Part shown: piece by piece, positions 28,241-32,747 of the stretch
Numbering within the stretch: the first letter of the stretch is position 1
How the letters are laid out: every line of letters begins with the position of its first letter
From: Opitutia bacterium
GTDB lineage: Bacteria > Verrucomicrobiota > Verrucomicrobiia > Opitutales > Opitutaceae
DNA length: 64,000 nucleotides
NCBI GenBank assembly: GCA_016217595.1
Contig: JACRHS010000020.1
Span: 124,001-188,000 of the forward strand
Direction: 5' to 3'
Notes under the pieces: model-generated
Told to the model about the DNA's origin: nothing
The model's input: the letters and a program-made list of their open reading frames with translations, nothing else
Database searches by the model: none
Translations under genes and position numbers: made by a program

Positions 28241-28279
28241 AAAAAAGAGCACCCGCGACGGCTAAACCGCCGCGGGTGC
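28239..28279 (-). terminator. Rho-independent terminator of the TonB receptor gene
   Basis: On the minus strand a 9-bp stem (GCACCCGCG with CGCGGGTGC, extended by an inner CGG/CCG pairing across one mismatch) is followed by a short CTC and eight Ts. It overlaps the stop codon of the TMTC-like gene, which comes from the other side. Confidence 0.88.
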
Positions 28280-28322
28280 CCCGCTATGCATACTACCCCT
28301 TGAACCTAACAAATTCTCCGAC

Positions 28323-31307
28323 TTAGAACCGGCCGGTGATGCCGAGGTTATAAGTCACACCTTGATAGAAGGCGCTGAACACCTGACCGCCAACGACTGC
28401 CTCTTGAGTGGGCGTGTTGTTCAGATTAAAGACATCAAGGAAGATGTCGTAATTGCGCGAAATCGTGTAGCGGGTTTTGAGGTCGTACATCGTGCGCCGC
28501 GCGGCCCAATAGGAGGTGTTTCCATTGGTCCCCAAAACTTTGACGTGGGGCCCGCGATAGCTGGCGAGCAACCGCACATTCAGGCCATAACGTTGATAAT
28601 TCAGGCTGGCGTTGCCGCTGTGCGGGACCAATCCCGCCAAGGTCTTCAGAGTGGTCGCGCCGCCATAATTGCCCTCGGAGGTCAAGGTGGTGAAGTTGCC
28701 CTGCACACCAAAGCCCTTCCAGAAACCAGGCAGCCAATTGCTGAACTGCTGCTGGTAGCTGACATCGAAACCACGCACCCAAGCACTGCCGATATTCCGA
28801 GGAGTGCTGAGCGTCCAATTTGCGTATTGGCCATCGAATCCGTTGTCCTGCCCGGCACCGATCGTGCTGGTATTGCTGGCGATGTAGTCCTTGATGTTCT
28901 TGTAGAAGGCACCGATGCGAATTTCGCCCACCGGCTCGAAATACCGCTCCACCGAGAACTCGAAGTTGTCTGAACGGTACGGCTTCAAATCCGGGTTGCC
29001 CATCGACACGGTGGAAGAGGTCGGACTGACGTTGATGATCTGCAAGATATTGGCGATCGGCGGCCGCGAGATCGACGAGTTATAGCTGAGGCGGAACAGC
29101 AGATTCTTCTGCGCCGTGTAGGTGAAGTGCACCCCGGGGAAAACATTGCGATAGTTGCCCGTCCGGGACAGCACGCCCTTGAACTTGGCTTTCGCCAGAG
29201 CCAGATTTTCAGCCGCAGTCAGCGTGGCATTGCTATTATATTGGGCACTACCATCGATCAGCAACATGGTGCCGCGCACATCGGTTTCCTCTACACGCAA
29301 GCCGCCGAGAACAGACAGCTTGCCGAGCTCCATTTTGCCCTCGGCGTAGGCCGCGGTGATCTGCTCACGGAAGCTGCCATCGGCATTATTCGAATTCACA
29401 AAATTCGACCAAGGCTGAGTCGCGCTCCCGGAGAAGAAGCCCGATTGAGCAATGTTGCCCTTGTCACTAACACCAGGGGGCACGATGAACGGCCAGGGGC
29501 CATAGCGGCCGCCACCCTGCAAGTAGGAGGTCTCGACATAAGGTGTGATACCTGTCGGACCGGTCCACACGTTGTCCGCACCGTAGTCGCGATACTGCGC
29601 GCGCGAATCGATCTGCAGTTTGGCGCCGACTTTGACGTAAACCGGCACTGCCGCATCCAGATCTTTGCGGAAATCGAACTTGAAGTTCCGCATGTTATCG
29701 GGCGAGGACCATGTCCACTTCTCCCGCAAGTAAGGCGTGTAGGTGGCCGGACTGGTCAACGAAGCGCCCGCTGTCTGCCGGAAGATCGGATACCGCTTGT
29801 CGCCACGGAAGTCCAAGCTCCAGCCCAGACCGGTCGGAGCCACGAGCTTGGTATCAGCGTAAACCGTGTCATAGCCCGGGTACCACACATCGGCGTGCGA
29901 GAAGAACGCGCTGACATCCAGCTTGGCGGTGTTCTTGAAGAGCTTAAAACTCGCGCCCGGATTGATGCTGTAGTTGTAAGACTTCTTCACGAAGGTGGAG
30001 GAGTTCGACTGCGCATTCGAGCTGGCCGCAGCTGTGGGCACCACATCGACAAACATCGGCGTCGAAGCCGCGCTGAAACTCGCCGCTGACGCACCCGTCT
30101 GGATGTTCCAGCGATAAAAGCGCTGATTCTGCGTATTGGAATTATAGTTGGTGCGGACGTACCAGTAGCTGCCATTGCCCAACTTATAATCCACATTGAA
30201 GCCGACATTGGTGGCTATGGCCGGGTAGTAAAAATCACCCGTGCCCCACTGCCGGATCATGCCCGTCGTACCATCATGGGAACCGGGCGCATGAAAATAG
30301 CCGGTATTCGCGCCTACTTGGGAATTGCCGATTTCGTCCTGCACCGTGAAGGAGCGCCGGCGCGCCGCATTAAACGAGAAGCCGAGGTTCCGCTCGCCGC
30401 CAAACACGCTCACCACATCCGAGTAAGCCAAGCTGACAGAATCGAGCCCGGAGGGCTTGCCCTGAATGGGATTGGCACTTGATTCACGCAACTTGCCCAG
30501 CAAGCCGGCATTCAACGTGATCTTGCGTCCAGAAGCATCGTAGGCGCGCTTGCTCTGGAGATTGACGAAACCGGCCACTGCGTTGGCGTCATGCTCCGGA
30601 AGCGGAGCTTTGATCAACTCGATGGAGTCGATGCTACCCGTGCCCATCTGCTCGATTTGATAATCGCGATTGGCCGAGGTACCGAAGGCCGAAGCCATCT
30701 GGTTGCCGTCAACCTGCATGGTGGAAAAGGCCGTGCCCATGCCGCGAATGAACAGCGTGCGCACTTCCGAACCGACGATTTCCGCCGTGATGTTCGGCAT
30801 GCGCTGCAAGAGCTCACCCGGATTGGCCGCCGGTGTGCCAAAGGTGTCCGTGGCGGCCACTGTCTTGGAGTTGGGTGCATCGCGCTGCACCTGCAAGGCA
30901 AGAGCGTTGCCTTCGCGCACACCTTTTACGGTGAAAGCCTCGAGCGTGTACACCTCCGAGCTCATGGCGATATCCTGCACCACCCGTTTGCCGGCGGTGA
31001 CGTTGACGGTCACGGTCACGGAATCCAGACCCGTGTAGGAAACGGTCACCTTCTGCATTCCTTCCGGAGCCTGGATGGTGAATGTGCCATCGGTTTCCGT
31101 GGATGTGCTGTATTTCGTGCCCTCGACCGAAACAAAGGCGCTGCGGAGCAAATCGCCCGTGGCCTTGTTGGAAACACGGCCGGTGATTTCACCGGTCGCG
31201 ACGATCTGCGCTGATAGGCAGGAGCTCAGATAGGCAAAAAGCAAAAAGCCGAGCGCCACGAGGGGACTCCGCTTCGTTGTTGGAGCAGTTGATCGATAAC
31301 TTTTCAT
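28323..31307 (-). CDS. TonB-dependent outer-membrane receptor
   Basis: This 994-residue receptor takes up a ligand too large for porins, using energy from an ExbB-ExbD-TonB complex. It has a signal peptide (LVALGFLLFAYLSSCLSAQ), a carboxypeptidase-D-regulatory-like domain (about 40-115, ITGRVSNKATGDLLRSAFVSV), a plug domain (about 130-265, LLQRMPNITAEIVGSEVRTLFIRGMG), and a 22-strand barrel ending in YNLGITGRF. This design is typical of the many sugar-uptake receptors of Opitutaceae. The nearby TIM-barrel sugar enzyme and the shared operator (31582-31607) point to a carbohydrate ligand. It is transcribed alone, with a 275-base leader and its own terminator. Confidence 0.93.
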   Translation of the reverse strand: MKSYRSTAPTTKRSPLVALGFLLFAYLSSCLSAQIVATGEITGRVSNKATGDLLRSAFVSVEGTKYSTSTETDGTFTIQAPEGMQKVTVSYTGLDSVTVTVNVTAGKRVVQDIAMSSEVYTLEAFTVKGVREGNALALQVQRDAPNSKTVAATDTFGTPAANPGELLQRMPNITAEIVGSEVRTLFIRGMGTAFSTMQVDGNQMASAFGTSANRDYQIEQMGTGSIDSIELIKAPLPEHDANAVAGFVNLQSKRAYDASGRKITLNAGLLGKLRESSANPIQGKPSGLDSVSLAYSDVVSVFGGERNLGFSFNAARRRSFTVQDEIGNSQVGANTGYFHAPGSHDGTTGMIRQWGTGDFYYPAIATNVGFNVDYKLGNGSYWYVRTNYNSNTQNQRFYRWNIQTGASAASFSAASTPMFVDVVPTAAASSNAQSNSSTFVKKSYNYSINPGASFKLFKNTAKLDVSAFFSHADVWYPGYDTVYADTKLVAPTGLGWSLDFRGDKRYPIFRQTAGASLTSPATYTPYLREKWTWSSPDNMRNFKFDFRKDLDAAVPVYVKVGAKLQIDSRAQYRDYGADNVWTGPTGITPYVETSYLQGGGRYGPWPFIVPPGVSDKGNIAQSGFFSGSATQPWSNFVNSNNADGSFREQITAAYAEGKMELGKLSVLGGLRVEETDVRGTMLLIDGSAQYNSNATLTAAENLALAKAKFKGVLSRTGNYRNVFPGVHFTYTAQKNLLFRLSYNSSISRPPIANILQIINVSPTSSTVSMGNPDLKPYRSDNFEFSVERYFEPVGEIRIGAFYKNIKDYIASNTSTIGAGQDNGFDGQYANWTLSTPRNIGSAWVRGFDVSYQQQFSNWLPGFWKGFGVQGNFTTLTSEGNYGGATTLKTLAGLVPHSGNASLNYQRYGLNVRLLASYRGPHVKVLGTNGNTSYWAARRTMYDLKTRYTISRNYDIFLDVFNLNNTPTQEAVVGGQVFSAFYQGVTYNLGITGRF

Positions 31308-31343: not shown

Positions 31344-31581
31344 AGGATTGACTGAGTTGTCTTCGATGGAAATGAGCGCCGGTTTTTCCAGATTTAGCCC
31401 TTCGCGAATGAGCCATGCAGAACCGATGCGCAGTTGACCGTCACCCACGCCACCGGTCCCGCCATGGCGAATGCAAACGCCACGCACAGCAGAAATGGTG
31501 GGAGCAAAGATGGTGTTAACATCGCGGGGAAAGGGTGAGGGAGAATGGTGTGATAATAACATTCACCGGCCTTTAAGAAAA

Positions 31582-31607
31582 TGGCCAAAACCACGATATT
31601 TTTAGCA
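31582..31607. promoter_or_regulatory. LacI-like operator upstream of the TonB receptor gene
   Basis: This 26-base site begins TGGCCAAAA, has CG exactly at its centre (31594-31595) and ends TTTTTAGCA. It matches the site at 32722-32747 in 20 of 26 positions by eye. Imperfect dyad symmetry with a central CG is the usual shape of LacI/GalR-family operators. It lies 275 bases upstream of the receptor start. Confidence 0.6.
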
Positions 31608-31673
31608 AAAACCTCAGAACTACTCCAACCTCGCATGCTCGAGCCAGAGCGCGTCCGCACGGGTATGTGCAAC

Positions 31674-31702
31674 AAAAACGGCGCTCCTTTGGGGAGCGCC
31701 GT
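31674..31702 (-). terminator. Rho-independent terminator of the TIM-barrel isomerase gene
   Basis: On the minus strand a perfect 10-bp stem (ACGGCGCTCC with GGAGCGCCGT, 5-base loop) is followed by TTTTTGTTG. It lies 31 bases after the stop codon at 31733. Confidence 0.88.
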
Positions 31703-31732
31703 CGGCGATTAAAACAAGGACTGAGTCGGCGT

Positions 31733-32611
31733 TTACGCCCACACTTGGCGGACATACCGCCGCAGATTTTGCAGGCCTATCTCCAACGCCTGAACCGGCT
31801 CTTCCAGTCCCTCGAACTCGATGGACAACACGCCATCGTAGTTCGCCTGCTTCATAATTTTCAGGCACGAGAGAATCGGAACTTCGCCGTGTCCGACGAT
31901 GGTTCCCTTCAGATGATTGCCGCCGCGCGTCTGGAACCAGCCTTCGCCCGGCTCCGGCGCTGTGCCCGGCTTCACGTTGAAATCCTTCGTGTGCACATGC
32001 GACACGTACGGCATCAAACGTCCCACGGCCCGACCCGGCTCTTCGTCGGCACAGAGGAAATTGCCCATATCGATGAGCGCGCCGAAATTCGGGTGATCCA
32101 CCGCGTTGATCAACTTTTCAATGCGCTCACTGTCCTGACAAAAGAAACCGTGGTTCTCGACCATGGTCTTGATGCCAAGATCCGCAGCGAACTCCGTCAC
32201 CGCACGGCAGCCCTTGGCCAGCGTCGGCAACGCGTCATCGAAACTCCGACGACCTTTGTGTCCGGGCGGAAAGCCGCGCGTGGCATCGTGCCGCATGCCT
32301 GGCGCGCCAAGAATTTTCGCCACTCGCACCTCGTCCTTCAACCGCTCCGCCACCCCCTGCCAGTCGCGGCCCGGCTCATTGAGAAAATCCGCCCCGATGG
32401 TGTAGTTGGCAACGGCGATGCCCACGCGGTCGCATTCGGCGCGCACTTTCGGCGCAAAGGTCAGCGGCGTCTCGCCCGGCGGCAACGTGAGTGTGGAAAA
32501 CTCGATCACGTCGAAACCGAGCGCCTTGGTTTTGGCGATAATCTCGAGCTGGCCCATCTGGCCGGATTTGACGAGGCGAATGTAACTGTAGGAGCTGACA
32601 CCGAATTTCAT
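31733..32611 (-). CDS. Sugar phosphate isomerase/epimerase, xylose-isomerase-like TIM barrel
   Basis: This 292-residue protein has the AP-endonuclease-2/xylose-isomerase-like TIM-barrel fold. It begins MKFGVSSYSYIRLV and shows the metal-binding strands: TMVENHGFF (Glu), ALIDMGNFLC (Asp), HVHTKDFN (His) and VLSIEFEG (Glu). These fit a divalent-metal isomerase, epimerase or dehydratase for a sugar or polyol. The exact substrate is not readable. Many members of this group are encoded beside TonB receptors in Opitutaceae. It is a single-gene unit with its own terminator, and the operator-like site 111 bases upstream is shared with the TonB receptor gene, so both probably respond to the same sugar. 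Confidence 0.85.
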   Translation of the reverse strand: MKFGVSSYSYIRLVKSGQMGQLEIIAKTKALGFDVIEFSTLTLPPGETPLTFAPKVRAECDRVGIAVANYTIGADFLNEPGRDWQGVAERLKDEVRVAKILGAPGMRHDATRGFPPGHKGRRSFDDALPTLAKGCRAVTEFAADLGIKTMVENHGFFCQDSERIEKLINAVDHPNFGALIDMGNFLCADEEPGRAVGRLMPYVSHVHTKDFNVKPGTAPEPGEGWFQTRGGNHLKGTIVGHGEVPILSCLKIMKQANYDGVLSIEFEGLEEPVQALEIGLQNLRRYVRQVWA

Positions 32612-32721
32612 GGGAGAATAGGGAAATAAATAAACGCTGGGTTACCAGAGTCCCGGACCGGCGAAAACCTCTTTCTGCCGACAGGACTGCATAGCATACG
32701 GACAAAGCCGGGAGCTGAAAA

Positions 32722-32747
32722 TGGCCAAAATACCGATGTTTTTGGCA
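32722..32747. promoter_or_regulatory. LacI-like operator upstream of the TIM-barrel isomerase gene
   Basis: This 26-base dyad begins TGGCCAAAA, has CG at its exact centre (32734-32735) and ends TTTTTGGCA. Nine of 13 half-site positions are symmetric. It is the better conserved of the two copies in the window. Position 111 bases upstream of the ATG suits a repressor or activator site near the promoter. Confidence 0.65.

Follow-up and report, generated by a model that had tools for sequence, protein, structure and literature searches.

Paired operator-like sites upstream of a TonB-dependent receptor gene and a TIM-barrel enzyme gene probably belong to an AraC-type amino-sugar regulon

The window analyzed here is a 64,000-nucleotide stretch of an Opitutia bacterium genome (contig JACRHS010000020.1, positions 124,001 to 188,000 of the forward strand) that carries two minus-strand genes, each preceded by a similar 26-base site. 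The gene at 28323..31307 encodes a 994-aa TonB-dependent receptor (TIGR01782) with CarbopepD_reg_2, Plug, and beta-barrel regions, and the gene at 31733..32611 encodes a 292-aa xylose-isomerase-like TIM-barrel enzyme that matches AP_endonuc_2. Terminator-like hairpins lie on the minus strand 3′ of the receptor gene (28246..28282) and between the TIM-barrel and receptor genes (31677..31703, with an 11-bp stem and a T tail), which agrees with a sequence-only reading of this DNA wherein each site was said to serve a separately terminated gene. The sites themselves are TGGCCAAAACCACGATATTTTTAGCA at 31582-31607 and TGGCCAAAATACCGATGTTTTTGGCA at 32722-32747. Their positions and common sequence are as that reading had described them, with identity at 21 of the 26 positions and no further copy in the window. 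Its count of nine symmetric half-site positions out of 13 for the second site is likewise exact, and the first site reaches 7/13 in the same 26-bp register. On the minus strand, where we predict them to be AraC-type operators of the receptor gene and the TIM-barrel gene, they read TGCTAAAAATATCGTGGTTTTGGCCA and TGCCAAAAACATCGGTATTTTGGCCA, respectively. The window contains no gene for a regulator, as had also been observed from the sequence.

When the pattern common to both sites (TGGCCAAAANNNCGATRTTTTTRGCA, with up to three mismatches allowed) was used to search the window, only the two sites were recovered, against an expectation of 0 from 100 shuffles. Across the available genome, which amounts to 3.59 Mb and is 68% complete, the pattern yielded four matches and a reversed-pattern control yielded none. 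The two matches beyond the window are located at C9:27550 and C15:167978. The C9 site resides 10 bp upstream of a gene for an AraC-family protein (L003:591-1490), facing a divergent gene, and the encoded protein carries the AraC-type two-helix-turn-helix domain HTH_18 (PF12833, E=7e-20). The fourth match (C15:167978-168003, or L004:1501-1526) overlaps the start codons of a different AraC gene that is divergent from a ThuA gene. We set this match aside as mostly a coding coincidence, because homologs hold the similarity at the same codon position and in frame. That it represents an intragenic operator is the less probable interpretation.

A search of 56 related genomes with the 26-base pattern, allowing up to two mismatches, returned no matches because the relatives carry a different version of the site, YGTYAAAAACATCGTCRTTTNTGCCA. 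Taken by itself, this outcome would have implied that the sites are not conserved, but the orthologs of the regulator showed otherwise. Of 200 family genomes searched with the C9 regulator, 76 encode a relative at E≤1e-20. The SecA protein of the present genome shares 76-81% identity with its counterpart from an uncultured Opitutaceae bacterium, and the family is probably Opitutaceae. A matrix built exclusively from the four pattern matches of this genome was then run over the regions preceding the genes of the 29 best orthologs, which come from many genera. The top match fell at −20 to −36 from the start of the regulator gene in 27 of these 29 regions, always in divergent orientation, and its score was 14 or more in 23 of the 27. 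Lack of conservation in related genomes, which the sequence-only reading had named as grounds for abandoning the proposal, is thus contradicted by the regulator orthologs. Note that relatives (L165-L193) also carry a second element, TGGCATTTT, approximately 10 bases upstream of the site, which might be an extra half-site. This element is absent at the three C9-type sites of the present genome, where TGARG is found instead, in two of the three cases within TTTGAAG.

We also derived a leave-out matrix from the relatives' sites only (28 sites, none of them from this genome) and scanned it over 175 kb of the organism's own sequence. The four highest scores belonged to the site of a NagB-PIG-L gene at C30 (37.5), the window sites at 32722 (34.8) and 31582 (32.9), and the C9 site (25.6), whereas the next unrelated match scored 11.3 and six simulated windows gave 8.6 or less. 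A sequence-only leave-out model (R2) applied genome-wide placed C6:73685 (E=0.002), the C30 site (E=0.006), and the 32722 site (E=0.018) as its best three matches. The 31582 site was not listed by this genome-wide model, and the genome-wide test is therefore less sensitive than the ungapped matrix, which recovered both window sites when applied to the own-genome loci. A weak model match at C11 was discarded since it falls in coding sequence.

The sites also occupy a fixed position relative to a promoter-like element. The sequence TANNNT starts exactly 23 nt past the 26-bp site in 36 of 37 non-redundant sites, and each of the other offsets (10 to 39) is represented by at most two sites. In the window, the corresponding −10-like hexamers on the minus strand are TATTAT (31553..31558) for the receptor gene and TATGCT (32693..32698) for the TIM-barrel gene, each exactly 23 nt past its site. 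At the C6 site, which precedes a GH20 hexosaminidase gene, the hexamer lies at 22 nt rather than 23. The downstream end of the site would fall at about −36, and no consensus sigma-70 promoter with a −35 element was found in the region of the window that contains the sites. Because of the fixed 23-nt spacing, the lack of a −35 match, and the family of the regulator, this geometry points to activation rather than repression. Both window sites are real and far above chance. Although the window holds just two copies, and their AT-rich core stands within a GC-rich genome, we attach a negligible probability to chance similarity or a non-regulatory repeat, which is refuted by the expectation of 0 from the shuffles, the empty reversed control, the fixed spacing to the −10 hexamer, and the recovery of the sites by the leave-out matrix.

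The sites had originally been described as LacI-like, and a LacI-type repressor acting on an even palindrome with a central CG might be imagined to repress both genes. The window copies do resemble LacI operators in forming a short, imperfect dyad with a central CG, 9/13 symmetric in the better copy, and the LacI-type protein NagR controls N-acetylglucosamine use in Proteobacteria (PMC5343134). However, the best symmetry is in an odd register of 23 bp, GCYAAAA-N9-TTTTRGC, whose arms match at 7/7 positions in the second site and 6/7 in the first, and at a weak 4/7 in the consensus of the relatives. The even palindrome with central CG attains 8/13 in the relatives' consensus and 7-9/13 in this genome's own sites, short of what a LacI operator should display. 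Moreover, the genes identified next to the sites are AraC, nag, TonB, GH20, and CBM genes rather than LacI genes, and the placement at a fixed distance upstream of a −10 element without a −35 match suits activation. We therefore regard a LacI-type repressor as very improbable and assign the site class to the AraC-family (HTH_18) gene that it tracks. The related proposal that one regulator governs both uptake and breakdown fares better in part. The two sites are of a single class, and therefore one regulator, or a pair of paralogs, could co-control both processes, but its type is most probably AraC.

The identity of the genes behind the sites indicates what this class of operator controls. Directly 3′ of the relatives' sites, most loci carry a gene for a NagB-PIG-L fusion protein (glucosamine-6-P deaminase/deacetylase; PF01182 + PF02585). 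Genes for TonB receptors, GH20 hexosaminidases, a ROK-like kinase (with weak ROK similarity), and in one case a beta-lactamase/NamZ-type protein also occur in this position. Nineteen of 20 selected genomes possess one to three sites each at E≤0.01. In the present genome, sites outside the window precede the GH20 hexosaminidase gene (C6) and the NagB-PIG-L gene (C30), whose product matches the NCBIfam model "glucosamine-6-phosphate deaminase-like". Among the kinase genes, those of genus g58 (L255:3-1451 and L260:1624-3027) form a divergent ROK-like family with weak Pfam and NCBIfam scores and are candidates for an amino-sugar kinase. The site class thus fronts nagB, hexosaminidase, and kinase genes, and the predicted products of the regulon could together cleave, import, phosphorylate, and deacetylate/deaminate N-acetylglucosamine-type sugars.

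Because the same class of site fronts NagB-PIG-L, GH20, ROK-like kinase, and TonB receptor genes, the most likely placement of the window's TonB receptor and TIM-barrel enzyme is in an amino-sugar regulon under an AraC-family activator. More specifically, we consider it quite probable that the window sites bind an AraC/XylS-family activator of an amino-sugar (N-acetylglucosamine-type) regulon that is distributed family-wide. The particular sugar and the reaction of the TIM-barrel enzyme are matters that we infer. In the mechanism that we propose, the activator would bind as a dimer at about −61 to −36 when the sugar signal is present, replace the −35 element, and recruit RNA polymerase. Separate transcripts would then start near 31546 for the receptor and near 32686 for the TIM-barrel enzyme. 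The activator most likely to act in this manner is the C9 paralog (L003:591-1490).

The genome encodes two such regulators, located at C9 and C30 (L014), which are paralogs with 55% identity. In a phylogenetic tree, the C30 protein falls in a clade linked to NagB, and the C9 protein, on a long branch, is basal to a clade containing the TonB-linked regulators. We favor C9 as the regulator of the window sites, and hold this assignment to be probable, because the window sites resemble the C9 site (20-21/26 identical positions) more than they resemble the site of the C30 locus (17/26). The variant TTTTRGCCA is also common to the window sites and the C9 site. Control of the window sites by the C30 protein of the NagB-PIG-L locus, or by both proteins jointly, is an appreciably less likely arrangement. 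It would be compatible with the membership of both proteins in one family, with the similarity of their sites, and with recognition helices that are largely conserved among C9, C30, and the relatives, but it does not match the closer resemblance of the window sites to the C9 site and the variant that they have in common. Near its recognition helices, C9 differs by carrying LRTQF for LRARF and IYCFS for IYSFS, and these changes, which are only suggestive, fit a shifted site.

The surroundings of the C9 gene raise a further question, which concerns the sugar rather than the regulator. Its divergent neighbor (L005:9765-12014) encodes a secreted-looking protein of 749 aa that contains a pair of Sialidase-like CBM domains and whose C-terminal portion, by eye, resembles beta-helix repeats. 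This protein matches no enzyme family and has no nag domain. Given the length of the C9 branch and the presence of this CBM gene, in place of a nag gene, next to the regulator gene, C9 may now respond to an inducer other than N-acetylglucosamine. It is conceivable, though we think it unlikely, that C9 and the window genes have moved to another glycan, such as the polymer recognized by the CBM protein, with the regulator being of amino-sugar descent. The derived variant of the site would be consistent with such a move, as would a TIM-barrel gene that is unlike the genes of the relatives' regulons. Nevertheless, a matrix derived only from relatives keeps the window sites within the nag class, and the nag regulon of the relatives includes TonB receptors. 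We therefore retain the assignment of the window genes to the amino-sugar regulon.

The TIM-barrel gene has an unusual distribution. Relatives of the protein with 55-73% identity are found in planctomycetes, Lentisphaerae, Clostridia, Latescibacterota, and one Opitutaceae contig, and genes for Gfo/Idh/MocA oxidoreductases often adjoin them. An ortholog search of 34 genomes from the family and the order recovered no close relative, none of the relatives' genomes was found to carry this gene 3′ of such a site, and a comparable site was sought at the loci in other phyla and not found. Because the relatives span distant phyla and none is close among the sampled family genomes, this pattern suggests that the TIM-barrel gene was acquired horizontally, and the regulon appears to have recruited it. 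Among solved structures, the closest is that of Art22 (PDB entry), for which no paper was found in the literature searched. Regarding the receptor, its nearest paralog (47%; C19:165669-169146) is located directly 3′ of another AraC-family gene, and the site class is absent at that locus. One tentative history, to which we give somewhat less than an even chance, is that a family-wide AraC-type N-acetylglucosamine activator was duplicated in this organism or its ancestors, that C9 and its operator changed together, and that a second regulon then recruited the TonB receptor and the TIM-barrel enzyme, the latter likely from another phylum.

Sugar-responsive activators of the AraC/XylS group bind sites that abut or replace the −35 element. 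The system described here resembles AraC, RhaS/RhaR, XylR, and MelR in its HTH_18 domain, in this placement of the site, and in the divergent layout of regulator and target, but its operator sequence differs from theirs, and similarity to named E. coli AraC/XylS proteins is restricted to the C-terminal region and lies far below equivalog cut-offs. For N-acetylglucosamine use in Proteobacteria, the regulators that have been reviewed are NagC (ROK), NagQ (GntR), and NagR (LacI), and the NagR regulons of Xanthomonas take in TonB receptors (PMC5343134). Those regulons are similar to the present one in that nagB catabolism, kinase, and chitin genes are co-controlled (PMC5343134), whereas here the regulator is of the AraC family and, judging from the geometry, an activator, and nagB forms a fusion with a PIG-L deacetylase domain. 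In the literature searched, which covers the field in part, we found no nag regulator of the AraC type reported for this group.

The system is an ordinary AraC-type sugar regulon, and the regulon itself is new. With it, an AraC-family regulator joins the three regulators of this pathway reviewed for Proteobacteria, which are of the ROK, GntR, and LacI types, and the genome presents a pair of paralogs whose operators appear to have diverged. Otherwise generic TonB receptors gain likely functions, and the combination of the site, the 23-nt spacing, and the −10 hexamer offers a predictive operator/promoter rule for the use of amino sugars in a family that has received little study, probably the Opitutaceae.
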